A DNA stretch of 64,000 bases from Acidipropionibacterium sp. (GTDB taxonomy: Bacteria; Actinomycetota; Actinomycetes; Propionibacteriales; Propionibacteriaceae): positions 1 to 64,000 of the forward strand of contig JALCLH010000006.1 in NCBI GenBank assembly GCA_022647765.1, read 5' to 3'. Under the pieces are notes generated by a model, which was given only the letters and a program-made list of their open reading frames with translations, was not told where the DNA came from and ran no database searches. A program made the translations under genes and the position numbers. Every line of letters begins with the position of its first letter. Within the stretch, counting starts at the first letter, position 1. This document shows, piece by piece, positions 36,395-54,923 of the stretch.

Positions 36395-37583
36395 TCAGCC
36401 TGCGATCAGCTGGGACCGGGCTCGCAGGGAGGCGACGAAGGCGCCGATCCGCTCCATCCCCTCACGGATCTGCGCATCCGAGGTGGCGTAGGAGAGCCGG
36501 ACGTAGCTCTCGCCGAGGGAGCCGAATGAGATTCCGGGGGCCACCGCGACCCGCTGCTCGTCCAGCAGGCGCAGGGCGAAGTCCTCCGAGGACAGCCCGG
36601 TCTCCTCGATATTCATGAAGACGTAGAAGGCGCCGTCCGGGGTGTTGCAGCTCACGCCGTCGATGCCGTTGACGGCGTCCACCATGAGGTCGCGCCGGCG
36701 GAGGTAGCTGAGCCGCATCGTCTCGATGACCGACTGGTCGCCGTCGAGGGCGGCGGTGGCGGCCACCTGGGCGGGGGCGTTGACGCAGCTGAGCATGGGC
36801 TCCTGCATGGCGGGCATGTACTTGATGACCTCGCTCGGGCCCGAGAACGTAGCCGATCCGCCAGCCGGTCATGGCGTAGGCCTTCGAGACCGAGTCGATG
36901 CAGAAGGTCCGCTCCTTCATTCCGGGGAGCCGGGCGATGTTGAAGTACTCCCGGCCGCCGTAGACGAGATGCTTGTAGACCTCGTCGAAGAGCACGTAGA
37001 GGTCCTTCTCGACGGCCACCCGGGCGATCATCTCGAGGCTCTCGCGGGAGGCGGTGGCGCCGGTCGGGTTGGACGGGGAGTTGATCAGGATGACCTTCGA
37101 GCGGTCGGTGATGGCCCGCCTCAGCGGTCCCTCCTCGAGGTCGAAGCCGGTCTCCTCGCGGGTCGGTACGGGGACCGTGGTGCAGCGGTTGAGGGCGATC
37201 GTGCCCTCGTAGTTGGCGTAGCAGGGATCGGCCACCAGCACTTCGTCGCCGGGATTCGTCAGTGCCGCCAGGGTGAGAAAGACCCCCTCCATGCCGCCAT
37301 TGGTCACCATGATCTCGGTGGCCGGGTCGTAGTCGATCCGGTCGAAGCGATGGAACTCCCGGGCCACCGCCTCGCGCAGCTGCTTGATCCCGGAGTTGTC
37401 CGTGTAGCCGATCCGGTCGTTGCGGATGGTCGCGGTGGCGGCGTCGATGACGTGGGGCGGGGTGCCGAAGTCCGGCTCGCCGACCGCGAAGGAGATCACG
37501 TCGTCCATCCCGATGATCCGGTTGAAGATGACCCGGATGAGCGACAGCGGCGTGTTGCTGGCCGCGGAACTGATCGGCTTCAT
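36395..37583 (-). CDS. class I/II PLP aminotransferase, frameshifted ~36845
   Basis: DVISFAVGEPDFGTPPHVIDAA, NSPSNPTGA, SVSKAYAMTGWRIGYVLGP; C-terminal half in other frame. Confidence 0.88.
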
Positions 37584-42304: not shown

Positions 42305-43561
42305 ATGGAAATCATCAAGGGGATCCTTGACATCGGCGCAGTCGTCATGCTGCCGATCGTTATGCTCATCCTTTGCCTGATTTTCCGAATGCCATTCGGG
42401 AAATCACTCAAGGCCGGTCTGATGATCGGCATCGGCTTCGCAGGATTGACGATCGTCATCAACTTCCTGATGGCCACCGTGGAACCGGCGGTGAACTACT
42501 ACCGCCACATGGGAAGCGGATTCACCACCGTCGACGTGGGGTGGGCCGCGGTCGGCGCGGCATCCTTCGGGGCTCCCTTCGCGGCGCCTGCGATCCTGCT
42601 CGTGGTGATCATCAACCTGGTCATGATTCTTCTGAACTGGACCAACGTCCTCAACGTCGACATCTGGAACTTCATCCACTTCCTGGTTCCCGGAACTCTG
42701 GCCTACGCGATCACCGGGAACTTCTGGGTCGGCCTGGGCGTCACGCTCGGCCTGTCGGTCATCGACCTGATCGTCGCCAAGCACATCGCGCCGAGCTGGC
42801 AGGAGTACTTCGGGTTGACGGGCACCACCTGCTCGACCCTGTCCTACATCACCTTCGCCTGGCCCATCGGCCTCATCTTCAACTGGATCTTCGACAGGAT
42901 CCCGGGTTTGAAGAAGATCGACCTGTCGATGGAGAAGGTCGGAGACAAGCTCGGATTCTTCGGCGATACGGCCTTCATCGGTCTCGTCGTCGGCATCTTC
43001 CTCGGCCTCATGACCCGTCAGTCCTGGCAGGGAGTGCTCATCATGGGCATGGGCATCGCGACCGTCCTGGTGCTGCTTCCCCGCATGGTCTCGGTGATGA
43101 TGGAGGGCCTGACCACCGTTGGCGAGGGCGCCAAGACATTCATGAAGCGCCACCTCGGCAAGGACAAGGACGGAAACGAGCGCGAGCTCAATATCGGTAT
43201 GGATGTGGCTCTGGCGCTGGGCGACCCGACGGCCATCACCATCACCGTGCTGATGATTCCGTTGGCGATCGCTTTCGCGTTCATCATCCCCGGCATGAAC
43301 TACTTCCCGGTGGGAATGCTCACCGGAATCGTGTACATGGTTCCGCTGATCGTGCTGGGCTGCAAGGGAAACATGTTCCGCGCGCTCATCGCCAGCGCGG
43401 TCTTCCTCTTCTTCGTGGAATGGGGGGCCAGCGTGTTCGCACCCGAGGCAACTCTCATGATGCACGCCACTGGTGTGAAGGTGAACGGTTCGGTCACCGA
43501 TGCGTTCTTCGGGTACAACCTTCCGAACGTCATCATTTCCACGCTGCATCGCATCTTCTGA
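42305..43561 (+). CDS. PTS galactitol-family IIC component
   Basis: 418 aa membrane protein in IIB-IIC-IIA operon; GLAGTTCSTLSYITFAWPIG-type region. Confidence 0.9.
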   Translation: MEIIKGILDIGAVVMLPIVMLILCLIFRMPFGKSLKAGLMIGIGFAGLTIVINFLMATVEPAVNYYRHMGSGFTTVDVGWAAVGAASFGAPFAAPAILLVVIINLVMILLNWTNVLNVDIWNFIHFLVPGTLAYAITGNFWVGLGVTLGLSVIDLIVAKHIAPSWQEYFGLTGTTCSTLSYITFAWPIGLIFNWIFDRIPGLKKIDLSMEKVGDKLGFFGDTAFIGLVVGIFLGLMTRQSWQGVLIMGMGIATVLVLLPRMVSVMMEGLTTVGEGAKTFMKRHLGKDKDGNERELNIGMDVALALGDPTAITITVLMIPLAIAFAFIIPGMNYFPVGMLTGIVYMVPLIVLGCKGNMFRALIASAVFLFFVEWGASVFAPEATLMMHATGVKVNGSVTDAFFGYNLPNVIISTLHRIF

Positions 43562-43582
43562 GCCGTCTCTCAGAACGTCTCC

Positions 43583-43625
43583 CTCTGTTGGCCCCACGGT
43601 TCTCGGGACCGTGGGGCCAACAGAG
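43583..43625 (+). terminator. strong hairpin between IIC and IIA genes
   Basis: ctctgttggccccacggt-tctcggg-accgtggggccaacagag, 18-bp perfect stem. Confidence 0.6.
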
Positions 43626-43661
43626 GATTTTCAGTACATCATGACAGGAGTATCCACAACA

Positions 43662-44132
43662 ATGAGTGACCTGATTGCTCCGGAACTGGTCCATGTCGGC
43701 GTCGAGGTGTCGAGCCGCGACGATCTTTTCGCCCTCATGGCGACGAGACTCTGCGATGAGGGGAGAACCAAGGAGTCCTTCCTCCAGGGCCTCAAGGACC
43801 GGGAGAAGAACTACCCCACCGGACTACCGGTCAACGGCGGCGTGGCGATACCGCACACCGACGCCGAGCATGTCCTGCGCGACGCCGTCTCCATCGCGAC
43901 CCTGGCCACCCCGGTCGGATTCCGCGAGATGGCCGGCACCGACGACACCGAGATTCCGGTGGACGTTGTCTTCATGCTCGCGCTGAGCGGCTCGGGGGAC
44001 CACCTCGAGGTGCTCCAGAAGATCATCACATGCATCCAGGACGGCGAGTTCATGGATACGCTGAGATCCTCCCGGTCCGCTGCGGAGATCGCCAGGACGG
44101 CGTCCGCCAAGCTGGGACTCGACGCAGCCTGA
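43662..44132 (+). CDS. PTS IIA component
   Basis: GLPVNGGVAIPHTDAEHVLRDAVSIATL. Confidence 0.92.
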   Translation: MSDLIAPELVHVGVEVSSRDDLFALMATRLCDEGRTKESFLQGLKDREKNYPTGLPVNGGVAIPHTDAEHVLRDAVSIATLATPVGFREMAGTDDTEIPVDVVFMLALSGSGDHLEVLQKIITCIQDGEFMDTLRSSRSAAEIARTASAKLGLDAA

Positions 44133-44182
44133 GGCGCCGAACAGGGGTGGCAGAGCAGCCACCCGGACAGGAACGGAACACC

Positions 44183-45769
44183 ATGTCAGAAGCCGCAACA
44201 TCAACCGCACGGAGTTCGGAAGGGCCGCTCGTGGTGGCCATCGACTCCTCGACCACCTCGACCAAGGCCATCGTCGTCGATGTCGACGGCAACGTCTGGG
44301 AGACCGCCAAGCGCGAGATCCAGCTCCACACCCCGGCAATGGATCAGTACGAGCACAACCCGGTCCGCTGGTGGGAGACCTCCCGCGACACCCTCGGTGA
44401 GGTGCTCTCCCGCCTGACCGCCGCCGAACGGGCCCGGGTCGGGGCCATCGGCATCACTCAGCAGCGCGAGTCCTTCGCCCCCTTCGCGGCCGACGGCACG
44501 CCGCTGCGCAACGGCATCCTCTGGCTGGACGGCCGCGCCACCGACCAGATCCGCCGCTACGGCACCGAGCACGTCCATCAGCTGTCCGGCAAGCCGGCCG
44601 GCGTCACCCCCGCCATCTACAAGATGACCTGGGTGGCCGAGCACGAGCCCGGCGTCCTCGAGCGGGCCGACAAGGTGATCGACGTCGGCGGCTACATCAC
44701 CTTCAACCTCACCGGCCGCTGGGCCACCTCCGAGGCCTCCGCCGATTCGCTCGGGCTGTTCGACATCGAGGCCCGCGACTGGGCCGACGAGCTCCTCGAG
44801 ATCGCCGGCGTCCGCCGCGACCAGATGGCCGAACTGGTGCCGCCCGCCCAGCCGGTCGCCGATCTGCGTCCCGAGCTCGTCGAGGCATGGGGGCTGCCCG
44901 GCCCCATTCCCGTCGTCGCCGGGCTCGGCGACGGCCAGGCCGCCGGCATCGGCGCCGCGGCGATCAGCCCCGAGATCGCCTACCTCAACCTCGGCACCGC
45001 GGTGAACGCCGGCGTCGAGTCGCCCAGCTACGCCTACGACTCCGGGGTGCGCACCCTGGTCTCCGGCATTCCCGGCGAGTACGTCTTCGAGGTCCTGCAG
45101 TCGTCGGGCTCCTATCTGGCCGGCTGGTTCCGCGAGGCCCTGGGCGACCCGAAGCTGGTCGGCGCCCCCGACCCCGAGCTGGACGCCGCCGCGGCCGCCA
45201 TCCCGCCGGGCTGCGAGGGCCTCATCACCCTGCCCTACTGGAACGCCGTCCAATCGCCGTTCTGGAATCCGGTGGCCCGCGGCGCCGTCGTCGGATGGCG
45301 CGGCACCCACTCCCGCGCCCACATGTACCGCTCGATCCTGGAGTCCATCGGCTTCGAGATGCGCGCCAACCTCGACTCCATCGAACGGCGCACCGGGGTG
45401 AGGATCACCACTCTGAGGGCGATGGGCGGCGGCACCCGATCGGCCCTGTGGCGCCAGATCATGTCCGACACCGCGGGACTGCCCATCACCACCTGCGTGC
45501 AGGACGAGATCTCCGCCCTGGGCGCGGCAGTGCTCGCGATGGCGGCGATCGGCGCGCACGGCGGCCACGACGTCGCCGCCTCGGCCGCCGCGATGGCCCA
45601 CTTCGGCGAGACCACCGAGCCGGATCTCTCCCTGCACGACCAGTACAAGGACGTCGCCGCCGTCCAGCGACGGCTCTACCCTCAGCTCCAGGACATCTTC
45701 GAGGATCTCCACATCCTCTCCGAGAGATACCCGAGCACCAAGCCGGAATCCCCGAAGCCGGAAGCGTGA
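44183..45769 (+). CDS. FGGY-family carbohydrate kinase
   Basis: VVAIDSSTTSTKAIVVDVDG; ITQQRESFAPF; MGGGTRSALWRQIMSD. Confidence 0.92.
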   Translation: MSEAATSTARSSEGPLVVAIDSSTTSTKAIVVDVDGNVWETAKREIQLHTPAMDQYEHNPVRWWETSRDTLGEVLSRLTAAERARVGAIGITQQRESFAPFAADGTPLRNGILWLDGRATDQIRRYGTEHVHQLSGKPAGVTPAIYKMTWVAEHEPGVLERADKVIDVGGYITFNLTGRWATSEASADSLGLFDIEARDWADELLEIAGVRRDQMAELVPPAQPVADLRPELVEAWGLPGPIPVVAGLGDGQAAGIGAAAISPEIAYLNLGTAVNAGVESPSYAYDSGVRTLVSGIPGEYVFEVLQSSGSYLAGWFREALGDPKLVGAPDPELDAAAAAIPPGCEGLITLPYWNAVQSPFWNPVARGAVVGWRGTHSRAHMYRSILESIGFEMRANLDSIERRTGVRITTLRAMGGGTRSALWRQIMSDTAGLPITTCVQDEISALGAAVLAMAAIGAHGGHDVAASAAAMAHFGETTEPDLSLHDQYKDVAAVQRRLYPQLQDIFEDLHILSERYPSTKPESPKPEA

Positions 45770-45816
45770 TCGGGCGGCCGGGAGCAGCCGATCAAGCCAC
45801 CGAGAAAGGACATCAC

Positions 45817-46869
45817 ATGTCGACAATCACCGTTCTCGGCGCGGGCGCCATGGGCACCGCGCTGTGCAAGCCGTTCGTGGACGCCGGCTGGCAGGTCCAC
45901 CTGTGGGGCACCTGGCTCGACGACCACCTGCTGGACGCCATCGAGGCCGGACAGCCCCATCCGCGGATCAAGGTGGCGGCCGCGCCGGGGATCACCACCT
46001 TCCGCTCCGGCCGGCTGGCCGAGGCCCTGGCGGGGGCCGATGTCGTCGACATCGCCGTCACCTCCGAAGGCCTGCCGAAGGTGACCGAGATGGCCCTGGA
46101 CCATATCGGCGACATCGGCGACCTGCGGGCGCTGTGCCTGACCGCGAAGGGCTTCTGGACCGACCCCGAGGGGAAGATCCGACTGCTGCCCGAGGCCATT
46201 CGCGCCATTGCCGCCCGAAAGGGCGTCTCGCTGCCCCCGCTGGTGGCCATCGGCGGGCCGGTCAAGGCCAACGAGTGCGCCGCCGGGGAGGTGACCGCCA
46301 CCACCTACGCCTCCACCGATCTGGCGGTCGCCGAGGCCCTGGCCCGCGAGGCGGCCACCGAGACCTACGGCATCCGTCCCAGCGACGACGAGACCGGGGT
46401 GGAGCTGTGCGCCGCCCTCAAGAACGTCTACGCCATCGCCCTTGGCATCGCCGACGGACTCGGGGAGGCCACCGGCGTCCCGCGCCACAACCTCAAGGCC
46501 GCCTCCTTCGCTCAGGCGGTCCGCGAGATGTCCCTGCTGGTCGCCAGGGCCGGCGGCCACGCCGAGACTCCGTACGGGCTGGCCGGGGTGGGCGACCTCG
46601 AGGTCACCGGGCTGTCGGGACGCAACAAGCTCTACGGGGTGCGGCTGGGAAAGGGCGAGGGGCCCGACGAGGCGCTGGCCGAGATGAACCGGCTCGAGCA
46701 GACCGTCGAGGGATACCCGGCGGCACCGCTGGCGGTCGCCTTCGCGCACCAGTTCGGGGCCGGCGAGGAGGAGCTGCCGCTGCTGCACACGGTGGCCACG
46801 ATCCTCAAGGGCGGGGTCGAGGATGTCTACGGCGCGGTGGCCGCCGCCGTGAAGCCGGTCAGGCCGTGA
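45817..46869 (+). CDS. NAD(P)-dependent glycerol-3-phosphate dehydrogenase-like protein
   Basis: TVLGAGAMGTAL; AALKNVYAIALGIADGLG; AGVGDLEVTGLSGRNKLYG. Confidence 0.87.
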   Translation: MSTITVLGAGAMGTALCKPFVDAGWQVHLWGTWLDDHLLDAIEAGQPHPRIKVAAAPGITTFRSGRLAEALAGADVVDIAVTSEGLPKVTEMALDHIGDIGDLRALCLTAKGFWTDPEGKIRLLPEAIRAIAARKGVSLPPLVAIGGPVKANECAAGEVTATTYASTDLAVAEALAREAATETYGIRPSDDETGVELCAALKNVYAIALGIADGLGEATGVPRHNLKAASFAQAVREMSLLVARAGGHAETPYGLAGVGDLEVTGLSGRNKLYGVRLGKGEGPDEALAEMNRLEQTVEGYPAAPLAVAFAHQFGAGEEELPLLHTVATILKGGVEDVYGAVAAAVKPVRP

Positions 46870-47252: not shown

Positions 47253-48657
47253 GTGAGATTGCAGGTGGAGCCGGCGGAATCACCGCTGCACGGGTATCTG
47301 GACATCCCTGTCTCGAAATACCACGTCCATCGCGCGCTCATCCTCGCCGCGCTGGCCGAGGGGCGGAGCCGGATCCACGGCGTCTCGACCACCCGCCAGG
47401 TCGGCTGGACCATCGACGCGCTGCGCGCCCTCGGCGTCGGGGTCGAGGAGAACGGCGACGAGTACATCGTCGACGGCTGCGCCGGCCGCCCGCGGCTCAC
47501 CGACTATCAGCACGCCGGGACGGACGCCACCCACGGCCTCATCGACGTCGGCTCCTCGGGCACCTCCCTCTACTTCCTGGTCGGGCTCGCCAGCCTGGCC
47601 GACCGCCAGGTCACCGTCACCGGCATGAAGTACCTGCGCAACCGCCCGATCGAGGCCCTGCTGCGCGCCCTGCTCCAGATGGGGGTGGACCTCAAGACCC
47701 TCCACGAGGACTGGCGGCTGCCCGTTCAGATCCAGCCCCACCGCCCCGACGGCGGTCACGTCGAGATGCCCGGGACCCTCTCCCAGTGGCTCTCCGGCGT
47801 CCTGCTGCTGGCCCCCTTCGCCACCTCGGACACCACGGTCCACATCACCGGCGGCCCGCTCAAGGAGCGCACCTACGTCGAGCTCACCATCTCGATGATG
47901 GCCCACTGGGGGCTTCAGGTCGACCATGACGCCGACTGGCTCACCTTCCACGTCCCGGCCAACCAGAGCGCCCAGGCCGCCGAGTACACGGTGCCCTCCG
48001 ACATCGGCGCCTCGGCCTTCGGCGTCGCGGCCGCCGCGATCCACCCCTCCGACGTGCTGTTCCACGGCCAGACGGTGATCGCCGGATCGCAGACCGACCA
48101 TCCCGAGGGCCACTTCCTCGACATCGCCCGGGAGATGGGCGTCAACCTCTTCAGCGATCCGGAGACCGGCCTGGCGCGGGTGGTCAGCGACGGCTCCCCG
48201 CTGCGGCCGATCGAGCTGGACTGCAGCACCGTCCCCGACCTGCTCCCGGTGCTGTCGGCGATGGCCTGCTTCGCCGAGGGCACCAGCCGGCTGTACAACG
48301 TGAGCCACATCCGCCTCAAGGAGACCGACCGGGTCGCCGCGATGACCCAGCTCAACAAGCTCGGCGCCCACCTCGAGCAGGGCGACGACGAGCTCCTCAT
48401 CACCGGCATCGCGCAGGGCCCCGGCCCGCAGGCGGCCCGAGACCGGGCGGAGGAGCAGCGGTCGTAACGTTGACGCCGGCCCCGGCGTCGAGCTCCTTCA
48501 CGGCGCCGAGATGTCCTCCTTCAACGACCACCGGGTGCTGATGTCGCTGGCGGTGGCCGCCACCCGCGCCGCCGGCCCCAGCACCCTCACCTATCCACGC
48601 GCCTACCGGATCTCGTATCCGACCTTTCTCGAGGAGATGCACCGCATCGGTATGAAT
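47253..48657 (+). CDS. divergent EPSP-synthase-family protein (shikimate-acting candidate); frameshift ~48420-48440, then open into the ligase ORF
   Basis: IPVSKYHVHRALILAALAEG, HIRLKETDRVAAM, then (other frame) GVELLHGAEMSSFNDHRVLMSLAVAA. Confidence 0.85.
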
Positions 48658-50508
48658 ATGTCCGTTGTTCCATCACACAGCACGACCACTCCCGCTGGAG
48701 CCACCGCCGGCCCCAGCACCACGCCGGCCGGCCCGGCCACCCCCGCGACCGCGCCGGACACAGCTCCGGAGCGCTCCCGGCGGGACTCCCGCCGCGACAT
48801 CCCCGAGGGCATCACGCTGGCCTCCGAGGTGCTCACCGACCGCGTCCGCCGGCTCTCGGTCGACCAGCCCGACGCCCCGGCCGTCATCGACGTCGGCGAT
48901 GAGACGCCGATCACCGTCACCTGGTCGCAGCTCCAGACCGAGGCCGATCAGGTCTCGATGGCCCTGCTCGACATGGGCGTCACCAAGGGGGACGCCGTCG
49001 CCATCCAGGTCCCCAACTGGACCGAGTTCGAGACGATCTCGATCGGCGTCCTGCAGATCGGCGCCCTCATCACCCCGATCATGCCGGTCTTCGGCGCCCA
49101 CGAGATCGCCAAGATCGTCGGCATGTCGCGCGCGAAGGTCGCCTTCGTCACCGACGAGTTCCGCCACCGTCACGGCCCCGCCGACCTCTTGGAGGCCGCC
49201 GAGGGCACCGATTTCCAGCTCGAGCACGTCGTCGTGGTCAACGCCGAGGATCGCCGCGGCCACCTGGCCCCGGCCGGCTCCCGCCCGTCGGCCCTGCCGG
49301 CCGACCTGGCCACCGACCCCCGCTCCCGGCAGTGGAGCTGGATCACCTACCGCGAGGCGATCGCCGGGCAGAAGCCGGACGCCGACCTGCTCGCCGCGCT
49401 GGCCCCGCACCCGCACGACCTCGCCGAGCTGCTGTTCACCTCCGGCACCACCGGCGATCCGAAGGGGGTCCAGCACGACCACCTCGGGCCCTCCCTGGCC
49501 ACCGCCCTGGAGATCCAGCACCTGGGCCTGACTACCGAGGATCGGATCTACGTCCCCACCCCGATGGCCCACCAGACCGGCCTGCTCTACGGCGTCATGC
49601 TCGCCTGGCAGCTCGGGGTGGCCGCGGTGATCCAGGCCGTGTGGAATGTCGACGTCGCCCTGGAGCGCGCCTTCCCGCAGGCCCGCGCCAGCTTCGTCCA
49701 GGCCGCCACCCCCTTCCTCGACGACATGGTGGACGCCGTTCGCAACGGCGCCCAGACTCCCGAGTCGCTGCGCATCTTCGTGGCCACCGGCGCCGCCGTG
49801 CCGCGCGCCCTAGCCCGTCAGGCGGCCGGCGTCCTGGACTGCTCGGTGCTGGGCGGCTTCGGCTCCACAGAGAGCTCGCTGGCGGCCCTGGCCGCCCCGA
49901 CCGACGACCCGGAGCTGGCCCAGGGGGCCGACGGGCGGCCGCTGCCCGGCATCGCGCTGAGGGTCACCGACGAGGACGGCGTCGTGCTGTCCACCGGTCA
50001 CGAGGGGAATTTCGAGATCGACTCGCCGACCCTGTTCGTCGGCTACCTCGACCGGCCCGACCTCACTGCCCAGGCCTTCACCGAGGACGGCTGGTTCCGC
50101 ACCGGCGATCTGGCCCGTCTCGACGAGCACGGCTACCTGCACATCACCGGGCGGGTCAAGGACATCATCAACCGCGGCGGCGAGAAGATCCCGGTCGTCG
50201 AGGTCGAGAACCTGCTCTACCAGCATCCCGGGCTGGCGGACGCCGCCGTCGTCGCGATGCCCGATCCGCGGCTGGGCGAGCGGGCCTGCGCCTTCGTGGT
50301 CGCCGCCGACGGAGCTGCTGCGAATGGCGCCGAAGCGCCGACCTTCGAGCAGATGCAGAAGTATCTGCTCGACCACGGCCTGTCCAAGTACTACTGGCCC
50401 GAGCGCCTCGAGTACCTCGACGAACTGCCGCGCAACACGGTGGGCAAGATCCAGAAGAACGTCCTGCGCGAGAAGGCCAAGGGCCTGACCGTGGAGCGCA
50501 GGCACTGA
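48658..50508 (+). CDS. acyl-CoA synthetase/ligase (AMP-binding, cyclohexanecarboxylate-CoA-ligase-like)
   Basis: LLFTSGTTGDPKGVQHDH; GWFRTGDLARLDEHGYLHITGRVKDIINRGGEKI; PRNTVGKIQKNVLR. Confidence 0.93.
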   Translation: MSVVPSHSTTTPAGATAGPSTTPAGPATPATAPDTAPERSRRDSRRDIPEGITLASEVLTDRVRRLSVDQPDAPAVIDVGDETPITVTWSQLQTEADQVSMALLDMGVTKGDAVAIQVPNWTEFETISIGVLQIGALITPIMPVFGAHEIAKIVGMSRAKVAFVTDEFRHRHGPADLLEAAEGTDFQLEHVVVVNAEDRRGHLAPAGSRPSALPADLATDPRSRQWSWITYREAIAGQKPDADLLAALAPHPHDLAELLFTSGTTGDPKGVQHDHLGPSLATALEIQHLGLTTEDRIYVPTPMAHQTGLLYGVMLAWQLGVAAVIQAVWNVDVALERAFPQARASFVQAATPFLDDMVDAVRNGAQTPESLRIFVATGAAVPRALARQAAGVLDCSVLGGFGSTESSLAALAAPTDDPELAQGADGRPLPGIALRVTDEDGVVLSTGHEGNFEIDSPTLFVGYLDRPDLTAQAFTEDGWFRTGDLARLDEHGYLHITGRVKDIINRGGEKIPVVEVENLLYQHPGLADAAVVAMPDPRLGERACAFVVAADGAAANGAEAPTFEQMQKYLLDHGLSKYYWPERLEYLDELPRNTVGKIQKNVLREKAKGLTVERRH

Positions 50509-50537
50509 TGACCAGACACGATGTTAAGGGGAACAGC

Positions 50538-51711
50538 ATGATCAGCGACGCAGAGTTCGCGTCCCTCAAGTCCGAGATCGCCGAGTGGGTGGCCGGTCCC
50601 GGCGAGGAGTGGTCCGAGCGGATCGAGGCCACCGGCGCGGTTCCCGAGGAGCTGGTCGCCGAGCTGCGCAGCCACGGCTGGATGTCCCTGGCGGCCCCCG
50701 CCGGAGCTCGGCGGCCGCGGTGTCGGGTTCGCGAAGTTCCTCGAGCTGATGGAGTACTTCTCCCGCCTGCACGCCTCGATCCGGATGCTGGTGCACGTCA
50801 ACAACGGCATCTGGCGCGCCCTGGTCGATTACGTCGACGACGAGCAGCGCGAGCAGATCCTCATCCCCACCGTCAAGGGCGAGAAGCGGATCGCCTTCAC
50901 CCTCACCGAGGCCGACTCGGGCACCGGCGCCGACATCCGCACCACCCTGCGCCGCGAGGGCGACGTCTACTACATGAACGGCGAGAAGCACCTCATCACC
51001 TTCGGGATGACCGGTGACTACTGGCTGCTCACCGCCCGCCTGGAGGGCACCACCGGCCACGACGGCACCGTCGCCCTGCTGGTGCCCAACACCGGGCTTC
51101 CCGGCGTCGAGCTCGTCGACGACTCCCAGACGATGGGGATCGCCGGTACCGACCACGCGATCATGCACTTCCACGACGTCCCGGTGCCGGTCTCGGCCCG
51201 GGTCGGCGAGGAGGGTCAGGGGCTGGACGTCGCTCTCGGCGGCTTCCTGCTGCCCAGCCGGATCTCGGTGGCGATGAGCTGCGTCGGCCTGGCCGAGCGC
51301 GCCCAGCAGCTCGCGGTGGAGTACGCCAAGCAGCGCGTCACCTTCGGCAAGCCGCTGGCCAAGCGCCAGGCCATCCAGTTCCTGCTGGCCCGCAACCACG
51401 CCTCGATCCTGGCGGCCCGCTCCCTGGTGCTGGACGCCGGGCGGGGCTACGAGGCCGGCCGTCCGGACGCCGGAGCCCTGTCCAGCGCGGCGAAGATGAC
51501 CGCCGTCGATATGCTGGCCGAGGTGACCGACAACGCCCTGCAGGTCTTCGGCGGGCGCGGCTACTTCAAGCGTGAGACCATCGAGCGGGTCTACCGCGAT
51601 GCCCGCGCCCAGCGGTTCGAGGAGGGCACCAACGAGATCCAGTCCCTCATCGTGGCCCGCGCGGTGCTGGACGGCACCGCCCGGTACGCCGACGACGTGC
51701 CGGTGGCCTGA
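50538..51711 (+). CDS. acyl-CoA dehydrogenase, frameshifted ~50702
   Basis: IAFTLTEADSGTGAD; NGEKHLITFG; QVFGGRGYFKRETIERVYRDARAQRFEEGTNEIQ. Confidence 0.93.
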
Positions 51712-51852: not shown

Positions 51853-52725
51853 ATGACTGAGCAGAATACCGAGAACAACAATGTCGTGGTGATCACCGGG
51901 GGCTCCCGCGGTATCGGCCGCGAACTGGCCCTGCGGCTTGCTGCCCACGGCGACCGCCTGGTGCTCAATTACAAGAAGAACGCCGAGATGGCCGAGCGCA
52001 CCCTCGAGGCCGTGCGTGCGGCCGGCGGGGACGGGATCACCGTCCAGGCCGATATCGAGACCGTCGAGGGGATCGACTCGCTTTTCGACACCGTCGCGGA
52101 AACCTATCCGACGATCAACGGTTTCGTGTCGAATGCCGCCGCCAGCGCCTTCAAGCCCGTCGACGGCATCAAGGCCATGCATTTCGAGCGCGGTTTCAAC
52201 ATGAATGTCCGTCCCCTGGTGCTGGGCGCCAAGCGGGCCGCGGCGATGATGGCCGACGGCGGCCGGATCCTCGCGGTCACCAGCTACGGCTCCCAGCGGG
52301 CCTTCCCGACCTACGCCCTGCTGGGCGCGGCGAAGGCCGCCGAGGAGGCCTTCGTGCGGTACATGGCCGTCGAGTACGGCCCGCGGAATATCACCGTCAA
52401 TGCGGTGAACGGCGGCCTCATCGACACCGATTCCCTGGACTTCTTCTACAACAAGGTGCCGGGAATGGCTCCGGTGGAGTCGGTGATCGACAAGATCCCG
52501 CTGCGCCGCCCGGGAAAGGCTGCCGATATGGCGGCGGCGATGGAGTTCCTGCTCTCTGAGAATGCCGGATACATCACCGGTCAGGTGCTCAATGTGGACG
52601 GCGGGATCACCGTCGTCGCGCCGCCCTACTGGGCCGACACGACCTCTCCGCTGCGCGACGCCGTGCTGCCCGAGGGCTCCGAGATCGTGACGCCGACCTA
52701 TGGCGCCCCGGGTGTCGAGGACTGA
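51853..52725 (+). CDS. SDR enoyl reductase, ChcA/FabL-like
   Basis: ITGGSRGIGRELALRLAAHG; NITVNAVNGGLIDTDSLDFF; ITGQVLNVDGG. Confidence 0.88.
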   Translation: MTEQNTENNNVVVITGGSRGIGRELALRLAAHGDRLVLNYKKNAEMAERTLEAVRAAGGDGITVQADIETVEGIDSLFDTVAETYPTINGFVSNAAASAFKPVDGIKAMHFERGFNMNVRPLVLGAKRAAAMMADGGRILAVTSYGSQRAFPTYALLGAAKAAEEAFVRYMAVEYGPRNITVNAVNGGLIDTDSLDFFYNKVPGMAPVESVIDKIPLRRPGKAADMAAAMEFLLSENAGYITGQVLNVDGGITVVAPPYWADTTSPLRDAVLPEGSEIVTPTYGAPGVED

Positions 52726-52803: not shown

Positions 52804-54923
52804 ATGACTGAGGTGCTGGCGAGCTGGCGGCTCGGCCGTCTGGAGGTGCCCAATCGGGTGCTGATGGGCAGCATGCACACCGGTTTCGAGCGGGACGGGG
52901 ATCGGCTGGCGGCCTTCTACACCGAGCGGGTGCGCGGCGGGGCCGGGCTCATCGTCACCGGCGGATATGCGGTCGAGGAGCGCGGTCGCTCGGTGCCCGA
53001 CGACATCGTGCTGGGCGACCCGGCCCTGGACGCATCGCTGGGCCGGTCGGTCGAGGCGGTGCACGCCGCCGGCGGGCTGATCGCCGTCCAGCTCTTCCAC
53101 TCCGGTCGCTACTCGGCAGGGCTTCCGGGTGCCGACGGCGTCCCGGTGCCGCCGGTGGCCCCGTCCCCGGTGGCCTGGCGGGCCGCCCGCGGGGTGGTGC
53201 CGGTGGCCATGACCGAGGCCGACATCGCCGAGACCCTGGCCCACTACGCCCGGGCCGGGGCCCACGCCGAGGAACTCGGCTACGACGCCATTGAGATCTC
53301 GGCCTCCGAGGGCTACCTCATCAACGCCTTCTGCTCCCCCCTCACCAACCTGCGCGAGGACGACTGGGGAGGGGACCCGGTCCGGCGCCGCCGGTTCGCC
53401 CGGGAGGTGGTGGCCGCGGTGCGCGGGGCCACCGGTCTGCCGTTGATCGTGCGGATCTCCGGGGACGACCTGATGGAGGGGTCGTCGACCCCCGATGAGG
53501 TGAGAGCGCTGGCCGAGGAGGTGGTCGACTCCGGTGCCGACGCGATCTCGGTCGGGGTGGGCTGGCACGAGTCGCCGGTGCCGACCGTCCAGTTCTCGGT
53601 GCCGCACGGGGCCTGGCTGGAGATCGACGAGCGGGTGGCCGCGCATCTTGCCGCCGAGCGCCCGGGGTTCCGGTGATCGGGTCCAACCGGATCTGCTCTC
53701 TGTCCGAGGCCCGCGAGGCCCTGGAGCGCACCCATCTGGCCGCGGTCGCCCTGGCCAGGCCCTTCCTGGCCGATCCCGACGTGGTCGCCGGGCCCCTCGC
53801 GGGGCGGACCGTGATCCCGTGCATCGGCTGCAATGAGGAGTGCATCGACCACTCGATGACGGGCCGCCCGATCTCCTGCCTGGTCAACCCGAGGGTCGGC
53901 AGGGAGGCTCACACCCCCCTCCCCTCGGCGCCCACCGAGCAGCCGCGGCGCCTGGCGGTGGTGGGAGCCGGTCCGGCCGGGCTGGTCGGCGCCGTCGACG
54001 CCGCTCGCCGGGGGCACCGGGTCACCCTGTTCGAGGCCGGTTCCGAGGTCGGCGGGCAGTTGAGGCTCGCCGGTCTGGTGAGTGGCAAGAGCGACTATCT
54101 GGCGGCCGCTAGGGCGATGGCGAAGCGTTTCGTCGAGCTCGGCGGGGAGCTGGTGCTGAACCGGCGGGTCGAGGTCGAGGAGCTGGCCGGATTCGATGCC
54201 GCGGTGCTGGCCACCGGCGTGCGGCCGCGCCGGATCGAGATCGACACCGATGGATCGTGCACGGTGCTGGGCTATGCCGAGGCGCTGGAGATGGCCGCCG
54301 GTTCTGGTCCCGGTGCCGGTGGGGGTGCAGGCGTGTCCGGTCCCGACGTGGCGGCCGGAATCGGCGCGCAACCGCTTCGTCCCGGAGATACCGAGCGGCC
54401 CTTCGGCGAGGTGCTGGTGATCGGCGGCGGGGGAGTGGCTGTGGATGTGGGGGCCACCCTGGCCCCGGCGTCCAGCGGCATGACCTTGATCCGCCGCGGC
54501 TCCCGGCGATTCGCCGCCGGCACCAGCCCCAGCACCCGATGGATCGGGCTGGGGGAGCTGCGCCGGGCCGGTGCTCGGATGTGGAACAATGCCCGTCTGG
54601 TGCGGGTCCGCGACGGTGTGGCCACCGTGGAGGTTCAGGTTCCCCCGGCTCACTCCTCCGCTCGGTCGGCGGTCGGTGCGGCTGGTTCCGCCACTCCGGT
54701 CGCCCCGGCCGGACATGGCCCGCAGATCCGGGCCGATGGGGAGGTCGAGCTGCGCGAGGTGCCGGTCGACACCCTGATCGTCGCCGTCGGGTCCGATCCC
54801 TGCGTGCTCCCCGGAAAGCTGTCCATTCCCCACCGGATCGTCGGCGGGGCCAAGGACGCCGGTGGTCTCAACGCCGCCCGCTCCACCCGTGAGGCCCTCG
54901 AGGCGGTCCGGGAGCTGGTCTGA
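52804..54923 (+). CDS. 2,4-dienoyl-CoA reductase-like (OYE + 4Fe-4S + FAD/NAD domain) flavoprotein, frameshifted ~53671
   Basis: OYE-type NRVLMGSMHTGFE; second frame IPCIGCNEECIDHSMTGRPISCLVNP, RRLAVVGAGPAGLVGAVDAARRGHRVTLFEAG. Confidence 0.9.

Follow-up and report, generated by a model that had tools for sequence, protein, structure and literature searches.

The window, by which we mean the whole stretch of 64,000 nucleotides of Acidipropionibacterium sp. that was analysed, carries an EPSP-synthase homologue at the head of what is almost certainly a cyclohexanecarboxyl-CoA (CHC-CoA) biosynthesis operon of the plm/ans type. Our main reading of the sequence, to which we give a probability of about 0.6, is that the EPSP-fold domain is one half of a two-domain fusion of the PlmJK type that opens this operon, and that it acts as a shikimate dehydratase feeding the CoA ligase to which it is joined. 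The domain is a relative of AroA whose substrate pocket, as read from its residues, has been rebuilt in a fixed manner. The feature is real and well conserved, and it belongs to a kind already known rather than to a new type of system. The operon in the window is made up of the following parts:

47253..48434, + strand: EPSP-synthase-like domain, N-terminal part of about 394 residues, frame 3, GTG start (PF00275, 225 bits; 89% identity to A. thoenii residues 1-394)
48435..48492, + strand: variable loop with a frame break, about 55 bp longer than in A. thoenii, read as a longer loop plus a one-base shift (pairwise alignment, gap of 55)
48493..48669, + strand: C-terminal part of the EPSP-synthase-like domain, frame 1, LLHGAEMSSFNDHRVLM...TYPRAYRISYP (PF00275 positions 369-417; translation)
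48670..48798, + strand: linker joining the two domains of the fusion (open frame 48511-50508; fused in A. thoenii)
48799..50508, + strand: acyl-CoA (cyclohexanecarboxylate-CoA-like) ligase domain, PlmK-like (PF00501, 216 bits; TIGR03208)
50508..51711, + strand: acyl-CoA dehydrogenase/reductase, PlmL-like, with a frame break near 50700 (profile search; one base more than A. thoenii in the alignment)
51853..52725, + strand: SDR reductase, ChcA-like (1-cyclohexenylcarbonyl-CoA reductase) (PF13561, 187 bits; 92% identity to A. thoenii; chcA position)
52804..54923, + strand: OYE/2,4-dienoyl-CoA-reductase-type flavoenzyme, PlmM-like, with a frame break near 53650-53661 (PF00724 and PF07992)

Profile search identified the open reading frame at 47253-48467 (+) as an EPSP-synthase homologue (PF00275, 225 bits, E 1.5e-66), with aroA as the top curated NCBIfam model, and a ribosome-binding-like AGGAGG lies directly 5' of its GTG start at 47253. 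The first-pass annotation had described 47253-48657 as an EPSP-synthase homologue with altered motifs. The homology and the motifs were both confirmed, and the changes proved to be fixed in 81 homologues; the interval, on the other hand, is not a single reading frame, being broken near 48434-48493. Of the motif set that had been listed, IPVSKYHVHRA, DVGSSGTSLYF, GTLSQWLS and RLKETDR all fall within the open frame at 47253-48467, but NDHR sits in another frame, at about 48493-48669. Residues 1-394 of the gene are thus encoded in frame 3 and residues 382-454 in frame 1, which continues into the acyl-CoA ligase: the long open frame at 48511-50508 holds the C-terminal EPSP-like stretch with NDHR and then the AMP-binding ligase. 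In the sister species Acidipropionibacterium thoenii DSM 20276 (G003, loci L035/L044), which shares about 89% identity with the window copy over residues 1-394, the two domains form a single intact open frame of about 1056 amino acids with the EPSP-like domain as its N-terminal half, and genes for the acyl-CoA dehydrogenase, the SDR and the OYE-type flavoenzyme come next. The first-pass annotation had described neither the ligase fusion nor the frame break. The top NCBIfam model for the ligase domain was TIGR03208 (cyclohexanecarboxylate-CoA ligase), at 396 bits, which is under that model's cut-off.

The gene order of a CHC-CoA operon, with the EPSP-like domain and ligase followed by the acyl-CoA dehydrogenase, SDR and OYE genes, was found in the window. 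This is presumably the same gene set as ansJKLM-chcA of ansatrienin. Phoslactomycin-type clusters contain, as genes for the CHC-CoA starter unit, plmJK (AMP-dependent ligase), plmL (acyl-CoA dehydrogenase), chcA (cyclohexenylcarbonyl-CoA reductase) and plmM (NADH:FMN oxidoreductase; PMC5852498, Table 2), and both plmJK-plmL-chcA-plmM of phoslactomycin and lmP1-P4 of lactomycin match the window operon in gene functions and order (PMC5852498). The double name of plmJK, a fused two-part first gene, fits a fusion of the window type, a match that rests on gene function and order. The earlier suggestion of an adjacent, ansatrienin-type shikimate pathway was therefore well placed, the neighbouring genes being those of a shikimate to CHC-CoA operon of the ansatrienin/phoslactomycin type. 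Unlike the plm, lm and ans genes, the window operon belongs to a propionibacterium, and its flanking genes include no recognised polyketide synthase, so its product most likely goes into fatty acids. Upstream, at 42305-46869, lies a carbohydrate cluster common to A. thoenii, with genes for a galactitol-type PTS IIC, an FGGY (xylulokinase-like) kinase and a glycerol-3-phosphate-dehydrogenase-like protein.

A search for the EPSP-like domain in a collection of species genomes gave 196 relatives; we kept 80 of them, and contig ends cut several of the loci. The EPSP-like, ligase, acyl-CoA dehydrogenase, SDR and OYE parts lie in one order on one strand in 67 of these 80 loci, and the EPSP-like and ligase parts form one open frame in 73. 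Among the seven unfused cases, six loci from Herbiconiux and its close relatives (L074, L085, L089, L090, L094 and L095) carry the two parts as adjacent genes, and one Frondihabitans copy is apparently frame-shifted. Polyketide synthase genes adjoin the operon in Streptomyces pacificus, Actinoplanes TFC3, Sinosporangium and one further genome (G301). The distribution is patchy: of five Acidipropionibacterium genomes, those of the window species and A. thoenii have the operon and the rest lack it, and a class-wide sample of about 395 genomes added just two more carriers. No plasmid-borne copy of the EPSP-like type was found among 72,556 plasmid records, where the best match reached 32% identity. 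One copy of the fused architecture (L113) came from outside Actinomycetota, in a Candidatus Eremiobacterota metagenome bin, where a binning error is possible.

Alicyclobacillus is the classic producer of omega-cyclohexyl fatty acids. The operon is present in the known cyclohexyl producers Propionibacterium cyclohexanicum (DSM 16859) and Curtobacterium pusillum, and Herbiconiux carries it too. The loci of P. cyclohexanicum and Curtobacterium (L045, L048-L078) have the same fused gene and the same gene order as the window, with identities in the EPSP-like domain of about 64-66% (P. cyclohexanicum) and 57-60% (Curtobacterium). Omega-cyclohexyl fatty acids have been reported from P. cyclohexanicum and C. 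pusillum (PMC5023266), Herbiconiux may contain cyclohexyl-C17:0 (PMC10011130), and in an asukamycin producer CHC-CoA also primes omega-cyclohexyl fatty acids (PMC4147253). We found no fatty-acid data in the literature for the window species or A. thoenii.

Pairwise alignment with A. thoenii showed three frame-changing differences: the longer loop with its extra base near 48434-48492, a single base at about 50701 and 11 bases at about 53650. Three of the four operon genes are hit, the breaks including what look like insertions of about 55 and 11 bp, as would be expected if the operon were decaying into a pseudogene in the window species and no product were made. We consider such decay rather unlikely: unrelated genes are broken too, at least two of them being split between frames in a 20-kb control region that surrounds the true aroA on a different contig (C4:76000-95900), and one within the window itself (36413-37583, - strand) being split relative to A. 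thoenii with a break at about 36.8 kb. The assembly, which is 86.65% complete, thus appears to carry scattered indel errors. Moreover, all long segments of the operon gave dN/dS values of 0.07-0.28, indicating purifying selection, and a longer variable loop together with one further base would account for the 55-bp difference. Together, the split genes elsewhere, the completeness of the assembly and the purifying dN/dS suggest that the breaks in the operon are probably assembly errors, recent decay being judged less likely.

To compare active sites, we set the 81 homologues against 29 actinobacterial AroA proteins in E. coli numbering. Residues K22, R27, G96, R124, S170, Q171, Y200, D242, D313, K340, E341, R344, H385 and R386 were kept in all rows of the 81, or in all but truncated ones, and T97 was kept as well. 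Nine changes were present in all or nearly all of the homologues and in none of the 29 AroA proteins: S23Y (80/80), N26H, D49 to Q or H (81/81), A95S, R100Y (81/81), the loss of one serine from SSQ, F172W, S197E (81/81) and K411I (80/81). Chance or sequencing error as the source of the motifs was ruled out by this distribution, and the departure from AroA in the active site is fixed across the family. Two positions, F101 and N94S, were dropped as signs of altered catalysis: F101 is also found in actinobacterial AroA (29/29), and actinobacterial AroA is likewise without N94, having L or D there, so the departure from GNAGT at this position, which the first-pass annotation had treated as distinctive, is not peculiar to the window type. 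Its claim of an altered SSQF-like region holds in that one serine is lost, but S170-Q171 are kept.

The clearest change, which the first-pass annotation had not singled out, is at the site for the 3-phosphate of shikimate-3-phosphate (S3P). In a quantum-chemical study of tobacco EPSPS, the S3P phosphate is anchored by K358, R105, S206 and the S179 backbone, and the PEP phosphate is contacted by E359, R131, D50 and T102 (PMC12256929); by our own conversion, these correspond to K340, R100, S197 and S170 and to E341, R124, D49 and T97 of E. coli. All 81 homologues have R100Y and S197E and lack one SSQ serine, with K340 kept, so that the site is not of the AroA type. The 3-phosphate pocket is thus without R100 and S197, has gained one negative charge and has a loop one residue shorter, and the PEP side retains three of its four listed contacts. 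Because the pocket has lost anchors and gained negative charge, unphosphorylated shikimate is favoured as the substrate. Among the PEP-site residues K22, D49, T97, R124, E341, R344, R386 and K411, six are kept and D49 and K411 are replaced. The earlier proposal that normal PEP transfer is absent therefore goes too far, since most PEP-side residues (K22, T97, R124, Q171, E341, R344 and R386) remain, and the domain may still use PEP.

The fold itself is that of EPSP synthase. An AlphaFold model of the A. thoenii domain had a mean pLDDT of 94.3 and a pTM of 0.92, and its top PDB matches were S3P-bound EPSP synthases such as 1g6s (TM about 0.85-0.90). The domain resembles AroA (EPSP synthase, EC 2.5.1.19) in this fold, in PF00275, in about 29% identity and in the shared residues K22, R27, R124, Q171, D313, E341, R344, H385 and R386; it differs in the nine pocket changes and the CoA-ligase fusion, and it is not the AroA of the genome. 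A second AroA of the ordinary kind, or one tolerant of glyphosate, that lay by chance beside a lipid operon would agree with the finding that the intact CHC-type protein of A. thoenii (L044:10001-11362) clears the NCBI aroA equivalog cut-off (307.9 versus 287.25 bits). We find this barely credible, given the nine fixed pocket changes that the 81 homologues share and that 0/29 AroA proteins show, and an ordinary second aroA was rejected on the active site, the tree, the fusion and the presence of the true gene. The 81 rows form one deep clade (SH-aLRT 100) that is separate from AroA and MurA and has a very long stem; the tree was built by a quick method and carried a long-branch warning, and we rely on the separateness of the clade alone. 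The first-pass annotation had raised the matter of a separate canonical aroA, and one is indeed present elsewhere in the genome (C4:85053; 333 bits with PF00275, 341 bits with TIGR01356), together with one murA-type gene (C7:169238) and one chorismate synthase (C14:83650), so the window gene is not the only aroA.

According to labelling work, the route to cyclohexanecarboxylic acid begins with the 1,4-elimination of shikimate. To our knowledge, no reaction has been assigned to the EPSP-like domain in the first step from shikimate to CHC-CoA, and we know of no precedent for a PEP-independent 1,4-elimination by an EPSP-synthase fold. We propose the domain for the shikimate step because no other operon product has a fold that binds shikimate, and because the ligase to which it is fused is the one that must act on the resulting acid. 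The domain would bind shikimate without a 3-phosphate: the phosphate holders S197, R100 and one serine of the SSQ loop have given way to Glu, Tyr and a deletion, and R27, D313 and K340 would still hold the rest of the molecule. Less certainly, it would then remove water from shikimate in the opening 1,4-elimination, in which E197 and K340, near the 3-oxygen, may help the 3-hydroxyl depart. The diene acid would be handed to the attached ligase, the acyl-CoA dehydrogenase, SDR and OYE enzymes would reduce the ligase product to CHC-CoA, and in the window propionibacterium CHC-CoA would prime fatty-acid synthesis to give omega-cyclohexyl fatty acids. We tentatively propose, at slightly less than even odds, that the EPSP fold, originally that of an enolpyruvyl transferase, here serves as a shikimate dehydratase (1,4-eliminase) that is independent of PEP, works without any phosphate activation and feeds its product directly to a fused CoA ligase.

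The main rival to the dehydratase reading is that the domain transfers enolpyruvyl from PEP to unphosphorylated shikimate, the enolpyruvyl ether or a phospho-intermediate serving as the leaving group for a later elimination. Residues K22, T97, R124, Q171, D313, E341, R344, H385 and R386, which we take (in part from general knowledge, in part from PMC12256929) to be the PEP-handling and acid-base residues of AroA, are kept in the 81 sequences, as such a transfer would lead one to expect; yet D49, a contact of the PEP phosphate (PMC12256929), is Q or H in 81/81, K411I is found in 80/81, and no enzyme for removing the enolpyruvate is evident in the operon. We regard enolpyruvyl transfer as unlikely, though worth serious consideration. 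It is also conceivable, but very unlikely, that the domain is not catalytic and serves the ligase as a binding or scaffold part. It always adjoins the ligase or is fused to it, and its substrate-side residues are altered; against a purely structural part, even very divergent members all keep the cationic residues and the general acid-base residues D313, E341 and H385, and in Herbiconiux the domain is a separate protein. We continue to favour a shikimate dehydratase feeding the ligase.

Because the A. thoenii copy clears the NCBI aroA cut-off, an AroA label is likely in databases, and automatic annotation likely names this protein 3-phosphoshikimate 1-carboxyvinyltransferase (AroA). The operon has been put to use for antibiotics and in doramectin engineering, a shikimate-derived CHC-CoA pathway of this type having been transferred to Streptomyces avermitilis for doramectin according to the passage of PMC6693128 that cites Cropp et al. 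2000. The chemistry of the first step is the point of interest. In the 81 homologues, the fixed set R100Y, S197E, K411I and D49Q/H suggests a substrate free of phosphate and singles out the residues of interest. Finally, given the operon, A. thoenii and the window species are both predicted to make omega-cyclohexyl fatty acids.
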